Assembly: GCA_004362315.1 (NCBI GenBank)
Contig: SNWL01000006.1
Span: forward strand, 372,001 to 436,000
Origin: Mycobacterium sp. BK086
Lineage (GTDB): Bacteria; Actinomycetota; Actinomycetes; Mycobacteriales; Mycobacteriaceae
Direction: 5' to 3'
Length of the DNA: 64,000 nucleotides
Both the position numbers and the translations under genes were made by a program. Positions 1,867 to 60,624 of the stretch are shown piece by piece (position 1 is the stretch's first letter; each line of letters opens with the position of its first letter). Under the pieces are notes generated by a model. It worked only from the letters and a program-made list of their open reading frames with translations, was not told the DNA's origin and ran no database searches.

Positions 1867-3174
1867 TCATCGGCTTCGATGCCGACCCACCTGTTCGATC
1901 ACGTCGGCACCCGTCCGCAGGCCGTCGCGGGCGCGGATCGCAGCACCGATCTCGGTGAGGCGCGCCCGCAGGGCACTGTCCGACAGGATCGTGTCCACCG
2001 CGCTGGTGAGCTGACCGTCGGTGAAACCATAGGTGTCCAGCCGCACACCGTAATCGAGTTCGTCGATCCGCTGGGCATTCTCGTACTGATCCCAGAACAA
2101 CGGCAGCACGATCAACGGCTTGCCGAAGTGCAGCGTTTCGGTCACGGTGTTGTTCCCACCGTGGGAGATGACCAGGTCGACCTGCGGGATGATCTTGGTC
2201 TGCGGCAGCATCTGCTCACCGACCATGTTGTCGGCAAGAGTGATTCGGTCCGCTTGCGGGCCTTTACTGACGATGAACCTGTGTTTGGTGGTGCCCAGCA
2301 CATCGACCAGCCGTTGCATGAGTCCGACGTCGGCACCGCCCAACGATCCTAGCGAGAGATAGATCAGCGCGCTGTCCGCCGGACGGTGGGCAACCTGTTG
2401 TGGAACAACGTATTCCGCGTCGGTTTCGCGCACACTGGAGTCCATTCGTGTCCAGCTGGTATCCAGCGGGCGCACGTCGACATAGTCGGCCTCAGCCGGA
2501 TACACGTACAGGTTGGCGGCATTGTCACGGGGCATGAACTCCAGATCCGGCAGCGGATCGGCGCCCTGGTGCTGGACCCAGTCGTTGAATTCGGTCCACA
2601 TCGCCCGGTGGGTGCGATCGAACTCGGCCCGGTAGGCGTCCCATTGCGAACGGTCGGCGCTGGGCAATCCGGAAAAAGGCGGCGGGACGTCAGGACCCGG
2701 TATCTCGAGCGGGCTGCACGACACGATCCGCACGAACGGCGTTCCCCCACTGACCAACGCGGGAAAAAGCACAACGTTGTCTTCGACGATGACGTCGGGT
2801 CGGTGGTGGGCGACGATCTCGCGCAGCCGGGGCTCGGCGTACTTCGCGCCGTCGACGAGAGCCTGATAGGTCGGTTGGATGAAGGTCTCGAGTTGTTCGA
2901 TCGTCGGCTTGCGGAACTCCGGCGCGGTTTCGGCGATGAAGTCGGTCCAGAACTTGCCAGGATCCTCATCGGCGGCACCCTCGGCAGGCTCGGCCAGATC
3001 GACCAACTCTTCGACGAAGCCGAGTGGGGCCAGCTTGCCCGCCCACGAGCTCTCCGCGGCGAACACAATCCGGTGGCCGCGATCTCGCAGAATCGCGGCC
3101 AGGCCGATGCACTGATTCGTTGGCCCGTAGGCCGATTCCGGCCAGAACATGATCGTCAGCGCATCAGCGGCCAT
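1867..3174 (-). CDS. MGT-type glycosyltransferase (GT-B, UDP-glycosyltransferase-like)
   Basis: A 435-residue GT-B enzyme. The N-terminal half begins with a typical acceptor-domain start (IMFWPESAYGPTN, GLAAILRDRGH). The C-terminal half has the sugar-nucleotide binding signature ISHGGNNTVTE followed by GKPLIVLPLFWDQYENAQR, typical of the macrolide/UDP-glucosyl transferase family. It probably glycosylates a small lipid or secondary metabolite in the cytoplasm; donor and acceptor are unknown. The ATG at 3174 is preferred over an in-frame GTG at 3207 because a GAAGGGA ribosome-binding site lies just upstream. It sits 36 bases behind the acyltransferase gene and 4 bases ahead of the kinase gene, so the four leftward genes look co-transcribed. 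Confidence 0.82.
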   Translation of the reverse strand: MAADALTIMFWPESAYGPTNQCIGLAAILRDRGHRIVFAAESSWAGKLAPLGFVEELVDLAEPAEGAADEDPGKFWTDFIAETAPEFRKPTIEQLETFIQPTYQALVDGAKYAEPRLREIVAHHRPDVIVEDNVVLFPALVSGGTPFVRIVSCSPLEIPGPDVPPPFSGLPSADRSQWDAYRAEFDRTHRAMWTEFNDWVQHQGADPLPDLEFMPRDNAANLYVYPAEADYVDVRPLDTSWTRMDSSVRETDAEYVVPQQVAHRPADSALIYLSLGSLGGADVGLMQRLVDVLGTTKHRFIVSKGPQADRITLADNMVGEQMLPQTKIIPQVDLVISHGGNNTVTETLHFGKPLIVLPLFWDQYENAQRIDELDYGVRLDTYGFTDGQLTSAVDTILSDSALRARLTEIGAAIRARDGLRTGADVIEQVGRHRSR

Positions 3175-3210
3175 TGTGGTCCCTTCGGACTCGAGCGGGC
3201 AGGACACCCA

Positions 3211-4386
3211 TCATCGCGCGATCACGGGCTCGGGCACATCGCTGACCGAACTGTCCAGGGGCGGCACCGCTTTCTGCCGATACTCCCAGCGTCGCAGAGC
3301 ATTCCGGCAGGGCGACTCGATCAAGGCGTAGCTGACCGCCGCCATGGCGAAGCCCAGGACCGTCGTCAGCACCAGCATCACGATGAGGTTGCCGTTGAAC
3401 ATGAACTTGCCGACCATCGGGAAGACCATCACCAGCGCGGCCAGATGCCAGACGAACAGCCCGTAGGACCAGCGGCCCAGCGTGACCATGAACCTGCTCC
3501 CCAGAATCGGGTGCGGCGTGTCGGGGCGATCGAGGACCAGCGGCGCGAGCAGCGCACCGGCGACGATGGCTCCCATCGAAGTGCGGATCACGAACTGCCC
3601 CAACGTCGCGGGAACCAGATCCTTCGGCCCGGCAAGCGGTGAAGCCGAGATCAGGTAGGCCACCAAGGCGATACTCGTGATGGCCCAACGATTCCGGGCC
3701 AATGCGTGCATCCTGCCGACCGGACTGACCGTCCACTCCGCAAGAAGCATGCCCGCGGCGAACCAGGACGCGTAGGCCGGCGGCCAGTTCAGGAAATTCA
3801 CGCCCTGCATGGTGTGAATCGGAAGCAGGCCCCAGCCCAGACTGGCCAGCGCCACCGCCGCGATCACCGGAATCCGGGCCCGCACCGGAAGCCTGCGCGC
3901 CAGGAACGCCAGGATCGGCAGCGCGAGATAGAAGCTCACCTCCACCGACAGGCTCCACATCTGGGTGAGCCCGGCGGTCAGGGTCAGCGGCACGTACACC
4001 TGCGTCAGCGTGAGGTTGGCCCACCACACCGTCCAGCTGGCGTGGTTGGCCTCTGGTAGCAGCGTCAGGATGACGACGACGGCCACCACATAGCCGGGCA
4101 TGATGCGCACCAGCCGCGAGCGCAGGTAGTGGCCGGTCGGCGGCCGCTTGCGCAGTCCGCGGGCGGCGGCCGCGTGACCGCGCCACAGCAGGAAGCCCGA
4201 GAGCGCGAAGAACACCGCGACGGCCAAGTCGAAGCGATGCAGCAGGCGGCCCACGACCTCGCCGGATGTGCCGGTCTGGAACGCGACGTGGGTGAGGACC
4301 ACCCCCATGGCCGCACACGCGCGCATGCCTTCCACAGCGGGCAGGAAGCTGCGGGTGCCGCCGACCTGCTCCGCCTCCTCTGCCAT
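3211..4386 (-). CDS. Membrane acyltransferase, family 3 (TmaT/Rv0228-like)
   Basis: A 391-residue polytopic membrane protein of the OafA/YrhL acyltransferase-3 family. It starts with the family pattern FLPAVEGMRACAA, has the conserved histidine in VLTH (H33), continues with VFFALSGFLLWR, and has about ten hydrophobic helices. Its position next to a DUF3068 gene and an Rv0226c-like gene matches Rv0228. The corynebacterial orthologue, TmaT, acetylates trehalose monomycolate, which helps its MmpL-mediated export. A role in TMM acetylation is therefore likely from synteny and family, though unproven here. It is divergent from the DUF3068 gene and heads the leftward operon. Confidence 0.82.
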   Translation of the reverse strand: MAEEAEQVGGTRSFLPAVEGMRACAAMGVVLTHVAFQTGTSGEVVGRLLHRFDLAVAVFFALSGFLLWRGHAAAARGLRKRPPTGHYLRSRLVRIMPGYVVAVVVILTLLPEANHASWTVWWANLTLTQVYVPLTLTAGLTQMWSLSVEVSFYLALPILAFLARRLPVRARIPVIAAVALASLGWGLLPIHTMQGVNFLNWPPAYASWFAAGMLLAEWTVSPVGRMHALARNRWAITSIALVAYLISASPLAGPKDLVPATLGQFVIRTSMGAIVAGALLAPLVLDRPDTPHPILGSRFMVTLGRWSYGLFVWHLAALVMVFPMVGKFMFNGNLIVMLVLTTVLGFAMAAVSYALIESPCRNALRRWEYRQKAVPPLDSSVSDVPEPVIAR

Positions 4387-4568
4387 GGCTGCCAGTGTGC
4401 TCTCCCATACTGGTTGCCCGCGAAAGTGGGTACACCTGGGCTAACCGTGCCAGTGGCGATGACCTCCTAATCTGCCAGTGCCTTGGCCTCTGCTGTTAGG
4501 GTCAGACACGTTTGCTTCGCCGTCAGGCGGTGTAGAGCACGATCGGGAGCGAGGGAGGCCACGGCAGC

Positions 4569-5768
4569 GTGAATCGCGCGGGCATGTTGCGTATCACGGC
4601 GTACGGCATCATCGGGCTCGGAGCCGCCCTGCTGATCGCGGCGCTGCTGTTGTCGACTTACACCTCCGGCAAGATCAAGAAGATTCCGCTCGATATCGAC
4701 GAGACCTTGGTCAGCGACGGAACCGGAAGCGCGCTGGACCCGTCGTCGCTGACGGGTGAGAAGTTCATCGTCGACAAGAACGTGCCCCTGGTATCCCAGC
4801 AGCAGATCACCGTCGAGTCGCCGGCCAACGCCGACGTCGTGACGTTGCAGGTCGGCACCAGCGTGCGGCGCAGCGACAAGCAACAGGACAACGGTCTGTT
4901 GCTTGCCATGGTCGACACCGTGACGGTGAACCGCAGCACGGCTTTGGCGGTGTCGGATGACACCCACCCGGGTGGCTCGGTGCAGAAGCCGCGCACGATC
5001 GAAGACACCAAGCCGCCGACGAACATTGCGCTGCCCCACGAGGGCCTGGCCTACCGCTTCCCCTTCGGCACCGAAAAGAAGACGTATCCCTACTTCGACC
5101 CGATCGCGCAGAAGGCGTTCGACGCCAACTACGACGGCCAAGAGGACGTCAACGGGCTGACGACCTACCGGTTCACCCAGAACGTCGGCTACGACGCCGA
5201 CGGCAAGCTGGTCGATCCGATCAAGTACGCCTCCCTGTACGACAAGAACGAGGACGGCGAGGTGACCGCGCGGGCCGAGCTGTGGGGCCTGCCCGGACCG
5301 CCCGAAGAACCGATCACTATGACCCGCTACTACGCCGCACAGCGGACGTTCTGGGTCGATCCGGTCACCGGCGTCATCGTCAAGTCGACCGAGCACGCGA
5401 ACCACTACTACGCCCGCGACGCGGTGCGCCCGGAGATGGAGCTGGCCGACTACAAGGTCACCTCAACCGAGCAGACCATCGAATCGCGAGTGGCGACGGC
5501 CCGTGACGAGCGCGACCGGGTGGGGCTGTGGTCGCGGGTGCTGCCGATCAGCTTCACCGCGGCCGGCCTGGTGGCACTGGTCGGCGGCGTGCTTCTGGGA
5601 ACGTTCAGCGTGCGCGCGGAGTCCGCCCTGATCGACCCGGGCCTGGACACCGCGGATCACGGGTTCTTCGGCAAGGATGAAACCGGGCCGATGCCCGCCG
5701 CCGAGGCGCAGACCGAGAAGCTGCCCGCGGCGAGACCGGATCTGGAGCCTCCGCCGCCCCAGCGGTGA
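4569..5768 (+). CDS. DUF3068 family membrane-anchored protein (Rv0227c-like)
   Basis: A 399-residue protein with one N-terminal transmembrane helix (about 9-31), a large extracytoplasmic beta-rich domain, a second helix (about 324-347) and a short acidic, proline-rich cytoplasmic tail. This is the layout of the DUF3068 family, which is conserved in mycolic-acid bacteria; family databases have associated it with PorA porins. The gene lies in the conserved TMM-export cluster and its stop overlaps the next start (GTGA), so the two are translationally coupled. The GTG start has GGGAGG ten bases upstream; an ATG 15 bases further in is a possible alternative. Molecular function is unknown. Confidence 0.85.
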   Translation: MNRAGMLRITAYGIIGLGAALLIAALLLSTYTSGKIKKIPLDIDETLVSDGTGSALDPSSLTGEKFIVDKNVPLVSQQQITVESPANADVVTLQVGTSVRRSDKQQDNGLLLAMVDTVTVNRSTALAVSDDTHPGGSVQKPRTIEDTKPPTNIALPHEGLAYRFPFGTEKKTYPYFDPIAQKAFDANYDGQEDVNGLTTYRFTQNVGYDADGKLVDPIKYASLYDKNEDGEVTARAELWGLPGPPEEPITMTRYYAAQRTFWVDPVTGVIVKSTEHANHYYARDAVRPEMELADYKVTSTEQTIESRVATARDERDRVGLWSRVLPISFTAAGLVALVGGVLLGTFSVRAESALIDPGLDTADHGFFGKDETGPMPAAEAQTEKLPAARPDLEPPPPQR

Positions 5769-7498
5769 TCTCTCCCGTGATCCAGGCACGCCCTGCGCTC
5801 CGGTGGGTGGTGCCGGGATACGCCCTCCTGCTGGCGCTGGTGGTGACCGCACCCCTGCTCGCCCCCGGATATCTACTGCTGCGCGACGCGGTCTCGACGC
5901 CGCGGTCGTACCTGTCGGATAGCGCACTTGGTCTGGGTGAGTCGGCGCCGCGGGCGGTGCCGCAAGATTTCCTGATCGCCGTGGTCTCACCCGTCCTCGA
6001 CGGCGGGTTGCTGGTCAAGCTACTGCTGATCGCCGGGATCGTCCTGGCCGGTTGGGGGGCCGGCCGCTTGGCGAGCCTGCTGGTCCCGGACGCCGGGCTG
6101 GCCGGCCAACTGGTGGCGACCACGCTCGCGGTGTGGAATCCCTACGTCGCCGAGCGGCTGCTGCAGGGCCACTGGAGCCTGCTCGTCGGGTACGGCGCCT
6201 TGCCGTGGGTGGCCGCCGCGGTGCTCAGGCTGCGCGACGACTCCGCGCCGGCGTGGGCGCGCTGGGCGACGGCCGTGTTCTGGATCGCGCTGGCCGGGCT
6301 GACGCCGACGGGTCTGTTACTGGCCGCCGTGGTGGCGCTGGTCTGTGTTGCGGCACCCGGCGACGGGGTGTCCCGGCTGCGGTGTGCGATCGGAGTGCTG
6401 ATCGCTTCGGTGCTTGCCGCGTCGCCGTGGCTCACCGCCTCGGCCCTGGGCGACGCGCTTGACTCGACTCCGTCCTCGGGGATCGCCGCGTTCGCGGCCC
6501 GCGCCGAACCGGGTCTCGGCACGCTGGGCAGTCTGGCCGGTCTCGGCGGGATCTGGAACGCCGAGGCCGTTCCGCCTTCTCGCACAACGCTATTGGCCCT
6601 GTTGGCCACGGCGGTATTGCTGGCCGTGGTGGTTGCGGGACTGCCGACGGTGCTGCGCCGCCGGTCCGCGGTGCCGCTGTTGGTCTTGGCCGCGGTCAGC
6701 GTGCTGCTGCCCGCGGCGGCGGCCACCGGTCCCGGGTTGTCGGTGCTGCGGGCGGTGGTCGAGGCGGCACCGGGCGTGGGGGTGCTGCGCGACGGGCAGA
6801 AGTGGGTGGCGCTGGCGATGCCGGGCTACGCGGTCGCGGGGGCCGCCTCGGTGCTGACGTTGCGACGGTGGCTGCGCCCGGGGGTCACCGCGATGCTGTG
6901 TGCGGTCGCGCTGATCGCCGTCCTGCCGGACCTGGCTTTCGGCGCTTGGGGCAAGGTCACGTCGGTGCAATACCCCCCGGGATGGTCGGCGGTGGCCGGG
7001 ATCGTCAACGGGGCACCGGCGGATGTGGCGGTGCTGCCCGCCGACAGCATGCGGCAATTCGGGTGGTCCGGCCCGGCGCCGGTGCTCGATCCGTTGCCGC
7101 GCTGGGTCCGTGCCGAGGTGCTGGCCACCGGTGACCTGACCATCTCGGGCCAGTCGGTACCCGGCGAGGGCGGCCGCGCGCGCGAGGTGCAGCGCACGCT
7201 GCTGGCGGGCGGGCCTGGCCAGGCGCTGGCGGACGCGGGAATCGGGTGGGTGGTCGTGGAGTCCGGCAGCGCGGGAGAGATGGGCGACGCGCAGCGGACC
7301 CTTCAGAATCTGCCGGTGGCCTATCGCGACGGCGACCTGACGCTCTATCGCGTGGGCGGGTCGAGTCAGGCTGCGCCGCAAGGGAAACGGACGCTGGCCG
7401 TGGTCGCCCACCTGGTGTGGCTCACCCTGCTGATCGGGGCCGGGATTTTGGCTCTGGCGGGCCGACGAACCAAAGATGTACCATCTGGTACATGTTGA
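5765..7498 (+). CDS. Large polytopic membrane protein (Rv0226c-like)
   Basis: A 577-residue integral membrane protein rich in Leu, Ala and Val with about a dozen hydrophobic segments, a soluble stretch near residues 400-520 and a last transmembrane helix near the C-terminus. Gene order and composition match Rv0226c, a conserved member of the TMM-export cluster with no assigned activity. Its topology would suit a GT-C-like or transporter fold, but I see no diagnostic motif. The start overlaps the upstream stop by four bases. The 3' end overlaps the ATG of the SRPBCC gene and carries that gene's operator-like palindrome (7476-7493) inside its coding sequence. Confidence 0.78.
   Translation: MISPVIQARPALRWVVPGYALLLALVVTAPLLAPGYLLLRDAVSTPRSYLSDSALGLGESAPRAVPQDFLIAVVSPVLDGGLLVKLLLIAGIVLAGWGAGRLASLLVPDAGLAGQLVATTLAVWNPYVAERLLQGHWSLLVGYGALPWVAAAVLRLRDDSAPAWARWATAVFWIALAGLTPTGLLLAAVVALVCVAAPGDGVSRLRCAIGVLIASVLAASPWLTASALGDALDSTPSSGIAAFAARAEPGLGTLGSLAGLGGIWNAEAVPPSRTTLLALLATAVLLAVVVAGLPTVLRRRSAVPLLVLAAVSVLLPAAAATGPGLSVLRAVVEAAPGVGVLRDGQKWVALAMPGYAVAGAASVLTLRRWLRPGVTAMLCAVALIAVLPDLAFGAWGKVTSVQYPPGWSAVAGIVNGAPADVAVLPADSMRQFGWSGPAPVLDPLPRWVRAEVLATGDLTISGQSVPGEGGRAREVQRTLLAGGPGQALADAGIGWVVVESGSAGEMGDAQRTLQNLPVAYRDGDLTLYRVGGSSQAAPQGKRTLAVVAHLVWLTLLIGAGILALAGRRTKDVPSGTC
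7476..7493. promoter_or_regulatory. Perfect 18-bp palindrome, probable TetR operator, over a leaderless promoter
   Basis: ATGTACCA-TC-TGGTACAT is a perfect 8-bp inverted repeat with a 2-base centre. It contains a TANNNT -10 element (TACCAT, 7479-7484) exactly seven bases before the ATG of the SRPBCC gene at 7492. The second arm ends within that ATG. A repressor bound here would block initiation; the TetR-family gene at 7922 is the obvious candidate. The symmetry is seen directly; operator function is inferred. Confidence 0.7.
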
Positions 7499-56690: not shown

Positions 56691-56898
56691 TCGATCCAGA
56701 ACGCAGAGCGACGATTCAGCCGAAATCTCGCTCTCAGTACTGACTCGATGCCGCCACTCGGGAGCGCCACCCGTTTCCAGTGAATATTTGCTGTGCTGGC
56801 ACCCCGCCGTAGCTAATCGCCTGTTATACATAGTGCTGGCAGTTCTTCACAAGTAACTTGCAGCAATTTCACAGGTGGCTCTGGGGGGTCAGTCAGTG
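56691..56898. other. Intergenic region between mmpL3 and the repeat-protein gene
   Basis: 208 bases without a convincing gene. AGAGCGA (56705-56711) and TCGCTCT (56728-56734) form a weak hairpin 14 bases after mmpL3 with no T-run. AT-rich TGTTATACAT near 56821-56830 is a possible -10 for the downstream gene. Confidence 0.4.
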
Positions 56899-59800
56899 GT
56901 GAGTCGTCAGCGCGTCATGCCCTACCAGTGGCTGGGTGCCGGAGCGGTCACGTTGGGCATCGGCGCGGCGATAGCCGGCGGCTCAGCTGTTGCGCACGCC
57001 GACAGTGAGTCCGGCACGGGTTCGGCCGGCCCGTCGTCTCGATCGTCGGCGGGTGACAACTCCGCGTCGTCGAAGCCGCTCCGCAAGAACACTCCGAAGG
57101 CCGCGATGGCCGGCTCGGCCAGGAAGGCCGGCTCGGCGAGTACGGCCCGCAGTGCACGGCCGTCGCCAAGGACGCCGAGTCCAGCCACCCCGAGCGCCGA
57201 GGTGCTCGCGACAGCCCTGGCGGCGACGACCCGCCGCGGGGCCGGGAAGACACCAGTCTCGACCGCGGTCACCAACTCGACGGCTGAACTCGAACGCGAG
57301 AAGGCCGTCGCCGACATCAACATGTCGGTCGGGTGGGTCCCGGGAGTCGGCACCGTCGTCAACGGCATGAGCCTGGTATCGGACTTCCTCGACTTCACCC
57401 TCGCGGTGCTGCGGGGCGACACCGCTGATATGGCCGACGAAATACGGGACATGGCTATCGATGTCGTCGGGATGGTTCCGATCATCGGTGCTCCCTTGGC
57501 GGCGACGATCCACCGGGCGACGGCGCCGGTCGTCCCACCACCCAATCACGCTCCCGGCGCCGTCAACGACAGCTTCACCGTCGACGAGAACGCCCAGTTG
57601 ACCGGCAATGTGTTGACCAACGACACCGATCCCGACGGCGACGTCTTAACCGCTGCCGTGGACACCGCGCCGGGCCACGGCGTTCTCACGCTCAATTCCA
57701 ACGGATCATTCACGTACACACCGGCTTCCGGCTTCTACGGCACCGACGTCTTCAGCTACACGGTCAGCGACGGCAAAGGCGGCACCGCGGCGGGCACTGC
57801 CACCATCACGGTGAAATCCGTTGATCCCGCACCTGTCGTGGACCCGCAGCACCCGTACTCGGTCGACTCAATCGACCCCGATACCGGGAAGATCAGCGGA
57901 CACTTCAACGTCACTGACGACGATGCGCTGACCTATCACGTTGTCACTGCACCAGATCCGACGTTGGGTACCTTCGAGCTTGACGAGCAGACTGGCGCAT
58001 GGACCTTCACTCCGCACCCTCGGACCAGGGTGCTGGCGAGCTACTTCGAGCCGGATTCGCCTGCAGCGGTGAAGCTTACGTTCGCCGTCACGGCCACCGA
58101 CGGCATCACGACGACCGCGCCTATCGCGGTGACCGAACAGATCGCCGCGTCCCCGCGCGCCGCAGTCGCGCTGCCCACCGGCACTGTGCCGGTGCTGTCG
58201 CTGGTCGATCCCCGCACCGGTGACGCCTACATATTCGGTTACCACGGAGCCTTTTTCGAGGGTTTCGACGAACAGACATCCTCGTACCTGGCGGTCATCG
58301 TGCACAGCGACGGCAGCTACGACGTCCCCACAACCGGAAACCAGACGGTGGGTGTGGCGCTCACCGCGTTCATCTCGAATGGCACCACCTACGTGGTGAC
58401 CCGAGTCGGTGATACCTCCGACAGCTACCAGACCTTCGTGTCGGAGCTGGGGCCCGACGGTCTGACGACTGTCACAGGCCCACTTTCGGGGGTGTTTCAG
58501 CGTTCGATTGCCGTGGGCGACACCACGTTCGTGGTGACCGTGTCCCAAGATCTCGACTCGAGTTACCAGTACCACGTCACCGGACTGGGGCCCGCCGGCG
58601 TGACACCGACGACGTCGACCCCAGGCTTCCCCTACGGCGATCCAATCGTCGTAGGGGACACCACGTACCTGGTGAGCGAAACCGGTGATGACGAATCCGG
58701 CTTCCAGACCCACCTGACAGCGCTGAGACTCGACGGCTCGACAACAACGGCGTCGATTCCCGGCTCTTTCATCCGATCGATCGTCGCCGCCGACGCCACC
58801 TACCTGGTGAGCGAAACGGGGCAGTATGAATCCGGCTACCAAACCCACCTGGCAGCGCTAGGGCCCGACGGCGTCACGTCGACGACATCGATACCCGGGC
58901 AGTTCCATGAGGACTCGTGGGGATATTCGGTTGTCGTTGGCGAGACCACGTACGTGGTGACACTCACCGGTCGCTACGAATCCGGCTACGAAACCCACGT
59001 CACGGCGCTGGGCCCAGAAGGTGTCGGCTCGACGATCACGATTGCCGGCTCGACACAACACGATCCGGTCATCATCGGCGACACCACCTATCTGTTGGTG
59101 ACCCCGTATTCGCGCATCGTGACCCACGTTCTCGCGTTGACGTCCGACGGCACAGTGCCAGTGGGGTCGATTCCCGGTGTGCTGAGCGGGGATCCGATCA
59201 CGGTCGGGGGCACCACTTGCCTGGTGTCGCAGACGGGTGCTTCCGACGACGCGGAGACCTGGCAGACCTATGTGACGACGCTGTCACCGACACCGGGCGG
59301 CATCACCTTCATCGGCGATCCCATCGCCGGATACCGTTACGGGCATCGCCCGATCGTCGTCGGCGACACGACCTACCTGGTGACCGAAACCTGGAACTCC
59401 ACCATCGGCTCCGAGACCGACCTGACGGCTATCGGTCCCGACGGGCTGATGTCTGTCGTCACCGATATCCCCGGCCGGATGTGGTCGGATGCGTACGTCG
59501 TAACCATCGGCGGCACAACGTATCTGGCGACAACGACAAGCTACTATTACCCTGGCGACTCGACCAACACCTACGAGCACACCTACCTGACCGGACTGGG
59601 GCCCGACGGGCCTGCACCGGCATTGGATCCGGTGTCGGGATACCCGGCCACAGCCCCGATCGTCGTCGGCGATACCACCTACCTGGTGATGGAGATCGAC
59701 GATCCGTCCACCGGATACCAAGTACAGCTGGTATCGGTCACCCCCGACGTCCTCACAGCGATCGGCGGTCCGGTAGCGGGCCGGGTGAATTCCCACAACG

Positions 59801-60624
59801 ATCTCGACGTGATCGTCATCGGCGGCAGCACCTACTTGGCGGTCGAGACCTCCGACCACGAGACCTCCCTCGTCGCAGTGGGATCCGGCGGTCTGACCAC
59901 CGGGCTCGGCACGCTGCCCGGGCACCTGATCACCACCCCGATCGCCGTCGGCACGACCACCTACCTGGTGACCCAGACCGGCGAATACGAGTCGGCTCAA
60001 ACATATTTCACGGCAGTCGGGCCTGACGGCCTCCCGCTGTCCACGTCCGCAGTCCGCGGCGAGGTGAGTTCCTATGAGCCGATCATCCTGGCGGGGGACG
60101 TCACGCACGTGGTGACAGTCGAATGGGAGGCGACCGACTCCGGCGGCTACTCGAGCAGTACTCGGCACGTCACGGCGTTGATGCCAGACGGCAGCAGCGC
60201 GTCGGTGGACCTTCCCGATGGCTGGGGCCAGACGATCACCGTCGGCGACACCACCTACTTCACAACGGAGGTTTATCCCGACGACGGCGGCGAGAGTCAG
60301 ACCCACCTCGTGGCATTGACACCCGACGGCTTCAGGACGCTCGCCGCTCCGCTGACCGGATACTGGTTTCCGCCAATCTCGCTCGGCGACAACGTGTATC
60401 TGCTGTCGATCACCGGCGATCCCGCCTCCGGCATCGAGAGCTACCAGACTCCCATCGTGGTGTTGACCCCCGAGGGCCCCGTTCGGATCGCAGAGCCCGT
60501 CCCCGGGGCGGTCCTCGGGACCTCCGACGCGATCTTCGTGGTCGGAGATACCCGGTACATCGCGACGACGGCGGGAGTGTGGGCGATCGGCGTCGGCGAG
60601 GGCGACGACAGCCTCAACCTCTGA
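56899..60624 (+). CDS. Large secreted protein with Ig/cadherin-like module and ~15 beta-propeller-like repeats
   Basis: A 1241-residue protein. A signal peptide (cleavage probably after AVAHA, residue 34) is followed by a low-complexity Ser/Ala/Arg region (~35-130). Next is a hydrophobic helical block (GWVPGVGTVVNGMSLVSDF onward, ~143-205) and a Big_9/cadherin-like domain (PGAVNDSFTVDENAQLTGNV, ~216-309). A second beta domain (~319-420) follows. From ~426 to the end are about 15 repeats of 45-52 residues built on VVGDTTYLVSETG, a Q/E-T-H-L-T-A-L centre, GPDG and a closing IPG. This pattern suggests beta-propeller blades. GTG 56899 is chosen because GGGGGG lies ten bases upstream. Surface binding or adhesion is plausible; function unknown. 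Confidence 0.8.
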   Translation: MSRQRVMPYQWLGAGAVTLGIGAAIAGGSAVAHADSESGTGSAGPSSRSSAGDNSASSKPLRKNTPKAAMAGSARKAGSASTARSARPSPRTPSPATPSAEVLATALAATTRRGAGKTPVSTAVTNSTAELEREKAVADINMSVGWVPGVGTVVNGMSLVSDFLDFTLAVLRGDTADMADEIRDMAIDVVGMVPIIGAPLAATIHRATAPVVPPPNHAPGAVNDSFTVDENAQLTGNVLTNDTDPDGDVLTAAVDTAPGHGVLTLNSNGSFTYTPASGFYGTDVFSYTVSDGKGGTAAGTATITVKSVDPAPVVDPQHPYSVDSIDPDTGKISGHFNVTDDDALTYHVVTAPDPTLGTFELDEQTGAWTFTPHPRTRVLASYFEPDSPAAVKLTFAVTATDGITTTAPIAVTEQIAASPRAAVALPTGTVPVLSLVDPRTGDAYIFGYHGAFFEGFDEQTSSYLAVIVHSDGSYDVPTTGNQTVGVALTAFISNGTTYVVTRVGDTSDSYQTFVSELGPDGLTTVTGPLSGVFQRSIAVGDTTFVVTVSQDLDSSYQYHVTGLGPAGVTPTTSTPGFPYGDPIVVGDTTYLVSETGDDESGFQTHLTALRLDGSTTTASIPGSFIRSIVAADATYLVSETGQYESGYQTHLAALGPDGVTSTTSIPGQFHEDSWGYSVVVGETTYVVTLTGRYESGYETHVTALGPEGVGSTITIAGSTQHDPVIIGDTTYLLVTPYSRIVTHVLALTSDGTVPVGSIPGVLSGDPITVGGTTCLVSQTGASDDAETWQTYVTTLSPTPGGITFIGDPIAGYRYGHRPIVVGDTTYLVTETWNSTIGSETDLTAIGPDGLMSVVTDIPGRMWSDAYVVTIGGTTYLATTTSYYYPGDSTNTYEHTYLTGLGPDGPAPALDPVSGYPATAPIVVGDTTYLVMEIDDPSTGYQVQLVSVTPDVLTAIGGPVAGRVNSHNDLDVIVIGGSTYLAVETSDHETSLVAVGSGGLTTGLGTLPGHLITTPIAVGTTTYLVTQTGEYESAQTYFTAVGPDGLPLSTSAVRGEVSSYEPIILAGDVTHVVTVEWEATDSGGYSSSTRHVTALMPDGSSASVDLPDGWGQTITVGDTTYFTTEVYPDDGGESQTHLVALTPDGFRTLAAPLTGYWFPPISLGDNVYLLSITGDPASGIESYQTPIVVLTPEGPVRIAEPVPGAVLGTSDAIFVVGDTRYIATTAGVWAIGVGEGDDSLNL
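58160..60600 (+). repeat. Tandem ~135-155 base coding repeats (blade-like units)
   Basis: About 15 units, each beginning near GTCGGCGACACCACCTACCT (encoding VGDTTYL). Examples start near 58505, 58645, 58780, 58930, 59066, 59355, 59665, 59944 and 60238. Units are clearly related at the protein level but diverged at DNA level, so the array is old rather than a recent expansion. Confidence 0.75.

Follow-up and report, generated by a model that had tools for sequence, protein, structure and literature searches.

Recently amplified beta-propellers and WRAP consist of tandem blades whose number varies among close relatives, and have more blades than one ring holds, according to Pereira and Lupas (2022, PMC9218822). 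The Cake propellers were designed from a quinoprotein and have a fold of eight or nine blades, according to two further reports (PMC7734218, PMC8458387). In the window analyzed here, a 64,000-nucleotide stretch of the Mycobacterium sp. BK086 genome (contig SNWL01000006.1, positions 372,001 to 436,000), we studied an exported repeat-protein gene at positions 56899..60624 of the forward strand, where an open frame of 1241 amino acids runs from a GTG at 56899 to a stop at 60624. The start codon was picked by a G-rich stretch upstream and by comparison with orthologues. An earlier note had described a large secreted repeat protein between mmpL3 and an Rv0205-like gene; the open frame, the signal peptide and the repeats were all seen in our analysis. 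The likeliest reading of the product is an exported binding protein that is specific to its lineage and evolves fast, and that belongs to a wider set of mycobacterial proteins sharing N-terminal parts but carrying exchanged C-terminal domains. No published description of the protein or its repeat was seen in titles and abstract openings, which does not establish absence from print.

The repeat domain, predicted to form beta-propeller blades, covers residues 422–1230 (58162..60588, forward strand) and comprises an N-terminal unit, 15 units found by a unit profile and a C-terminal partial unit. The 15 units score 22.0–66.4 bits, with a best domain score of 6.7 bits on 200 shuffles of residues 421–1241; the profile was trained on the same proteins and its high scores are partly by construction. 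The N-terminal unit (approximately residues 429–474) was missed by the profile and identified by inspection and model strands, while the C-terminal partial unit (strands A-B-C, 60532..60588, forward strand) was found by the profile at residues 1213–1227 with 10.6 bits, its strands lying at model residues 810–828. The earlier count of about 15 units is therefore confirmed, with one end unit added on each side, the last being partial. Unit starts, set by hand from the profile matches, are spaced 43–53 amino acids apart (mean 48.1), and the repeat head is acidic (88 D+E versus 16 K+R). The earlier note had suggested a Pfam search and a structure prediction as checks; the Pfam search of residues 427–1241 found no family on the repeats at E-values up to 10 with HMMER filters on, including FG-GAP/integrin, NHL and PQQ.

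The structure prediction returned four-strand, propeller-type blades. The AlphaFold model of the repeat domain has a pLDDT of 78 and four strands per unit, and that of the inner block (residues 716–1110) a pLDDT of 82.9 and a pTM of 0.75, with shallow underlying alignments of 4 and 7 sequences. Propellers are recognized by tandem units of 40–50 amino acids, each with four antiparallel strands; the profile units and the model strands agree with this pattern, and prediction supports beta-propeller-type blades in this domain. Judged by titles, the structural matches listed (50 for the whole array and 50 for the inner block) are propeller-containing proteins, with eIF3b, BamB and DPP4 propellers among those of the inner block. 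Foldseek TM-scores were at most 0.22 by query length and 0.32 by target length for the whole array, and at most 0.41 and 0.44, respectively, for the inner block, with an rmsd of at least 9.3 Å. At TM-scores this low, closed rings are hypothetical, and the earlier propeller reading is supported for the blades and their structural matches. Two seven-bladed propellers, as the earlier note had guessed, disagree with the 17 blades counted here, though G229 and G528 have 14.

Unit counts, alignment A5 and the model of residues 716–1110 suggest instead a proposed inner block of eight units at residues 723–1110 (59065..60228, forward strand). We infer that this block may form an eight-blade ring inserted in a larger, outer one built of six to nine blades, which would be completed by pairing of the C-terminal partial unit with the N-terminal strand (residues 422–424; model residues 20–22). 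With hand-set block ends, on which the inner count depends, the outer ring has six to nine blades and the inner block eight in six of seven homologues; assignment of the last units is ambiguous in G018, G229 and G528, and the hand-set ends account in part for the constant eight. At the sequence level, hhalign comparison of the repeat profile A9 with profile A8 from other mycobacterial proteins gave a probability of 96.8 and an E-value of 2.3e-10 in a single comparison, and A8 matched Cake5 at E 1e-5. Compared directly, a unit matches Cake only weakly, at 9.9 bits, where the best of 500 shuffles (425 of them reported) scored 7.5. Sequence searches of solved structures with the repeats returned nothing from A1 and two chance-level rows from A9, neither a propeller.

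The N-terminal part begins with a Sec-type signal peptide read from the sequence (residues 1–34; 56899..57000, forward strand), with cleavage expected after AHA in AVAHA/D; a similar stretch occurs in ten other genes of the same genome. It is followed by a low-complexity, basic Ser/Ala/Thr/Pro-rich linker (residues 35–128; 57001..57282, forward strand; 13 K+R versus 4 D+E), in agreement with the signal peptide and low-complexity stalk noted earlier. The helical block of that description corresponds to a module at residues 129–210 (57283..57528, forward strand) containing two GW/GM-V/I-P-x-x-G motifs plus two hydrophobic segments, located by profile A7 and hydropathy, which is probably helical by the appearance of its sequence. 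Profile A7, built from the repeat protein, its orthologues and L042, has 23 matches, spread over 13 of 98 genomes of the genus, and with the BK086 protein and L042 excluded it also finds this GWxPxxG module in 11 open frames of 10 fetched loci. Next is a Big_9 bacterial Ig domain (residues 216–304; 57544..57810, forward strand; PF17963, E 8.1e-28) scoring 97.6 bits versus a gathering score of 23.6. The Ig/cadherin-like assignment stands, but probably for two domains rather than one: the Pfam search reported a second Big_9/Cadherin_4 stretch without its position, which we place by orthologue inspection at approximately residues 308–420 (57820..58158, forward strand). With Big_9 and a signal peptide, the protein belongs among Big_9/cadherin surface proteins. 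No known anchoring signal was identified in it, and Pfam gave no PE or PPE domain at E-values up to 1.

Upstream of the gene, a conserved non-coding block (56780..56875, forward strand) was aligned in BK086, UC10 and G018 and is recognizable in G513. Its ends are a degenerate inverted repeat, GTGAATATTTGCTG ... YAGCAAWTTCAC, in the three aligned genomes, which is less clear in G513. With up to three mismatches allowed, the BK086 genome has a single copy of a 23-base core. Copies of the gene were the only places where the 34-base second half was found with 0–2 mismatches, the next match having 11, and the 23-base first half, with up to seven mismatches allowed, gave chance-level matches at 6–7, as poor as the G018 copy. 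A structured RNA was considered and set aside: one of 29 predicted pairs covaries, the covariation term is unfavorable (+1.67), and folding compared with shuffles gave z-scores of -2.37 in BK086 (4 of 200 as good), 0.55 in UC10 and 0.59 in G018, with two weak Rfam rows below the gathering score. The block is probably a promoter/operator.

In four genomes the gene is flanked by mmpL3, which encodes an essential lipid exporter (NCBIfam TrhMmycExpMmpL3, 1721 bits), and by the Rv0205-like AI-2E family gene; in a fifth the contig ends within the locus. Of 60 genomes searched, 58 had an AI-2E match, and the 30 best-matching loci were read; mmpL3 is directly adjacent to the AI-2E gene in 26 of these, consistent with the accessory insertion described earlier; three of the 30 hold the gene (BK086, G018 and G043), and L064, with a 27% partial MmpL match only, was not counted as adjacent. 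Gaps, measured between the last aligned position and the following stop, are -41 to 131 bases in the adjacent loci, except for 474 in L077. The position raises the idea of an MmpL3 accessory, a periplasmic scaffold aiding trehalose monomycolate export or mycomembrane assembly, by analogy with the propeller BamB of another outer-membrane system. This role would be very improbable: the gene is absent from the gap in those 26 loci, it has its own conserved upstream block, it diverges fast beside MmpL3 (62% identity between BK086 and UC10, where MmpL3 has 95.5% and the AI-2E protein 89%), and the BamB match is of fold only. A role with MmpL3 also stays unsupported because G229 and G528 carry the repeat domain with no mmpL3 in the 16–18 kb fetched. 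The functional tie to the export locus drawn earlier is thus not borne out, and 'surface system' was an overstatement for one gene around which no partner or effector genes were found.

Ten genomes match the protein, of which G197, G504 and G515 do so weakly (E 3.4e-6 to 3.6e-10) and were taken for distant relatives; because their match identities are the same, G522 and the UC10 record were counted once, and the genus genome samples of separate searches overlap. A secreted enzyme, or an enzyme-associated targeting protein, with a polymer as the substrate bound or processed by the propeller, is an unlikely but plausible reading, favored by the right-handed beta-helix region (Pfam E 6.2e-10) of a related repeat protein in G515 and by M23 peptidase or other domains in proteins with the helical module; against it, the Pfam families found in the protein are of Ig type only, none catalytic. 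Blade number ranges from 14 to 17 among seven homologues, with local duplication of blades and approximately 50–56% identity at a conserved gene position, as a self/non-self or contact-recognition protein selected for diversity of blade number and sequence might show. We consider that role rather unlikely, since the comparison covered a single sequence from each species, no gene for a partner or effector was found, and Pereira and Lupas (2022, PMC9218822) describe similar blade variation in other propellers. One blade is position-conserved in four orthologues (74–82% identity), and others look like recent local duplicates, with whole-unit gaps in the alignments; blade gain and loss within the lineage would best explain this pattern. 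The repeats were earlier called old and maintained, which is right only in part. Between BK086 and UC10, a single pair, the repeats have a dN of 0.36 and a dS of 0.71 (dN/dS approximately 0.5), which may fit weak constraint as well as adaptive change, and the gene has a dS of 0.74 versus 0.36–0.41 in flanking genes. These values could suit near-neutral baggage, weakly expressed, tolerated and slowly eroding, but the open frame of approximately 3.6–3.9 kb in four complete copies, the conserved upstream block and a dN/dS that stays below 1 in all five segments make it improbable.

A single origin was considered and set aside: on the AI-2E tree (without G513), and in 58% of bootstrap trees, the minimum is one gain, but with support of 53/12. 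Recent import was also set aside; GC3 is slightly lower (0.81 versus 0.88–0.89), and an insertion signature was sought by gap sizes only. A plasmid origin was rejected, the repeats having no match in plasmids, as was a phage origin, one phage matching only the Ig part (residues 215–419). The other repeat region of the G229 protein (residues 901–1500) was too weak to count as a homologue (hhalign probability 9.7, BLAST E 0.001) and has no match in the BK086 genome.

We think, with middling confidence, that the gene encodes a Sec-exported modular surface protein of a small group of mycobacteria, with a propeller head and a function outside the MmpL3 machinery, although the protein may be freely secreted. 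The signal peptide would be removed after export, and the basic linker and hydrophobic module may retain it within the cell envelope or close by, with the Ig/cadherin-like domains as a stalk and the acidic 17-blade array as an exposed head. This head, as two propellers nested as proposed above, might bind a ligand, most likely a polysaccharide or other surface polymer, in attachment or surface recognition, and would change as blades are gained and lost. The gene, in the gap beside mmpL3, probably has its own promoter. More tentatively, the Sec signal peptide and basic linker, plus the GWxPxxG hairpin in a subset, could be an unrecognized general mycobacterial surface-display device, comparable to the PE domain but Sec-dependent, for anchoring exchangeable payloads (M23 peptidase, PE-PGRS_C peptidase, PGRS, Ig arrays, propellers) in the mycomembrane, the payload here being the nested double propeller with six to nine outer blades and eight inner ones in six of seven homologues; we regard this combined reading as doubtful. 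If true, exported proteins with common N-terminal parts may explain surface display of large non-PE proteins in mycobacteria, and the homologues would form a series with 6, 7, 8 and 9 blades in one ring and a nearly fixed number in the other, in which the gain of blades by propellers could be tested in nature.

Among known systems, PE/PE_PGRS proteins are alike as exported families with many payloads, and some paralogues sharing the signal/linker stretch carry PGRS-like or PE-PGRS_C domains, but the repeat protein has a Sec-type signal peptide instead of a PE domain. Bacterial Big_9/cadherin surface proteins share the signal peptide and Big_9 stalk and differ in the head domain. The seven-bladed PLL/PHL lectins of Photorhabdus match with an rmsd of approximately 7–10 Å and had no sequence match in solved-structure searches, and sugar binding here is hypothetical. 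Quinoprotein/PQQ-like propellers (BamB; PDB 3HXJ and its derived Cake designs) are alike in blade length, four strands and an 'HLxAINPDG'-like strand and turn, and have eight- or nine-blade rings; in contrast, the repeat protein has no Pfam match, a longer loop before that strand, approximately 17 blades and low global TM-scores. With the recently amplified propellers and WRAP it shares the features given at the outset, yet most of its blades have diverged and the arrangement suggested here is one propeller inserted in another.

The earlier note described 56899-60624 (strand +) as a gene for a secreted repeat protein, and the 1241-codon open frame agrees with that description. The protein begins with a Sec-type signal peptide recognized by inspection (residues 1-34), from which export is predicted, followed by a basic linker rich in Ser, Ala, Thr and Pro (residues 35-128; 13 Lys and Arg versus 4 Asp and Glu), a short module (residues 129-210) containing two hydrophobic stretches, and a Big_9 domain (residues 216-304; Pfam E 8.1e-28). 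A probable second cadherin-like domain, seen by inspection at about residues 308-420 (the Pfam scan gives two Big_9 stretches), leads into the repeat domain at residues 422-1230. Using a profile trained on the units themselves, we found 15 units of 22.0-66.4 bits each, spaced 43-53 residues apart (mean 48.1), and a C-terminal partial unit of 10.6 bits, while the maximum over 200 shuffled copies of the repeat region was 6.7 bits. An extra unit at the N-terminal end can be picked out by eye and shows up as strands of the structure model. A Pfam search with the repeats returned no family at E up to 10.

Genus-wide searches recovered the repeats from 3 of 198 genomes with the BK086 sequence as query, from 4 of 248 with alignment A1 of the repeat family, and from 10 of 316 with alignment A4 (three of the ten weak), the three samples overlapping. 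An order-wide search of 249 genomes from 68 genera found them only in BK086, and a pattern-based scan of genome contigs gave a single locus, in the genome UC10. The gene lies between mmpL3 and the AI-2E gene in four genomes (BK086, G018, UC10/G522 and G513), and in G043 it is cut by the contig end with the AI-2E gene downstream. As the proposal of an accessory insertion implies, mmpL3 adjoins the AI-2E gene with no space for the repeat gene in 26 of the 30 AI-2E loci read. In G229 and G528 the repeat domain instead ends a protein of ~2400 residues that carries many Big_9 domains, and the 16-18 kb fetched contained no mmpL3. A single gain fits the AI-2E tree, with little support. At locus L056 of genome G004, a PGRS-like frame of the same N-terminal type (1-1374, strand -, truncated at the end of the locus) adjoins the AI-2E gene on its flank opposite mmpL3, the position occupied in the window by the LPG-synthase-TM gene; the 1.5 kb examined at L056 did not show that gene.

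A block of ~95 bases ahead of the gene (56780-56875) is conserved in BK086, UC10 and G018 and recognizable in G513. Its 23-base core occurs once in the BK086 genome at up to 3 mismatches, and among the loci examined only the gene's own copies match its 34-base second half with 0-2 mismatches, the next-best match having 11. The block shows no convincing shared RNA fold, although the window copy, taken singly, does fold better than shuffled versions of itself; most simply, the block is a putative promoter that has operator sites and is distinct from mmpL3. In the one pair compared (BK086 and UC10), protein identity is 95.5% for MmpL3, 89.4% for the AI-2E protein and 61.6% for the repeat protein, with NG86 dN and dS of 0.03 and 0.41, 0.06 and 0.36, and 0.29 and 0.74, respectively. 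Recombination or misaligned blades may account for the raised dS of the repeat-protein gene. For this pair dN/dS is 0.15-0.30 in the linker, helical and Ig parts versus 0.50 in the repeats, where misaligned blades can inflate values, and the gene reads as being under purifying selection that is relaxed in the head.

Ten other BK086 genes share the signal-peptide and linker stretch but have different C-termini, which as read from sequence include Gly-rich PGRS-like ones (loci L037, L038 and L041; G000:C5 and C3) and a pentapeptide-like one (L035). In the three PGRS-like proteins this stretch occupies the place expected for a PE domain. Another of the ten, L033 (G000:C2:588000-598000; 2402-4180, strand -), has a similar Sec-type signal peptide and linker ahead of a PE-PGRS_C domain, aspartyl peptidase-like (Pfam E 1.9e-91), and the scan reported no PE domain in it. 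Because these stretches consist of a signal peptide and low-complexity sequence, their likeness is only suggestive of homology. The helical module is a firmer link: counting the copies in this protein and its orthologues, it occurs at 23 places, spread over 13 of the 98 genomes of the genus that were searched, and 11 ORFs across ten fetched loci carry it. The five ORFs covered by the Pfam scan combine M23 peptidase and Big_9 (two), NHL-like repeats and Big_9, Calx-beta and Big_9, or have Big_9 alone. L121 and L122 (G004 and G084) are M23 peptidases in which this module, marked by GWxPxxG, is combined with a single Big_9 domain, so that the same scaffold may serve in envelope remodelling. L032 (G000:C4:491000-501000; 2562-6479, strand -), which lies about 61 kb away from the window gene, encodes a thermolysin-family (M4) metallopeptidase with a different type of signal peptide and four Big_9 domains ahead of the M4 domain.

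The protein is best read as a lineage-specific, surface-binding one whose head changes; its anchoring, ring number and ligand binding we infer. Structure prediction and remote homology support the propeller blades that had been suspected; neither the seven-plus-seven arrangement nor a tie to envelope export found support. The seven-sequence family profile A9 aligns with A8, a second mycobacterial propeller-like domain drawn from G515 and G504, at an hhalign probability of 96.8 (E 2.3e-10 for that single comparison). The corresponding loci, L105 and L106, encode a propeller-like array in which about 11 units can be counted by eye and which ends in the closing motif TTSTGVW, as in the window protein; in L105 a right-handed beta-helix region comes after the array. 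A8, for its part, has matches to three designed proteins of solved structure, Cake5, Cake4 and Cake3 (E 1e-5 to 3.2e-3); Cake is described as a quinoprotein-derived design whose fold has eight or nine blades (PMC7734218, PMC8458387). Compared directly with Cake, the units match only weakly (9.9 bits versus 7.5 for the best of 500 shuffles), and no propeller was among the matches of A9 to PDB sequences. Variation in blades is in itself already known, since Pereira and Lupas (2022, PMC9218822) describe cases in which 2 to 47 similar blades follow one another, and blade numbers that vary between closely related proteins.
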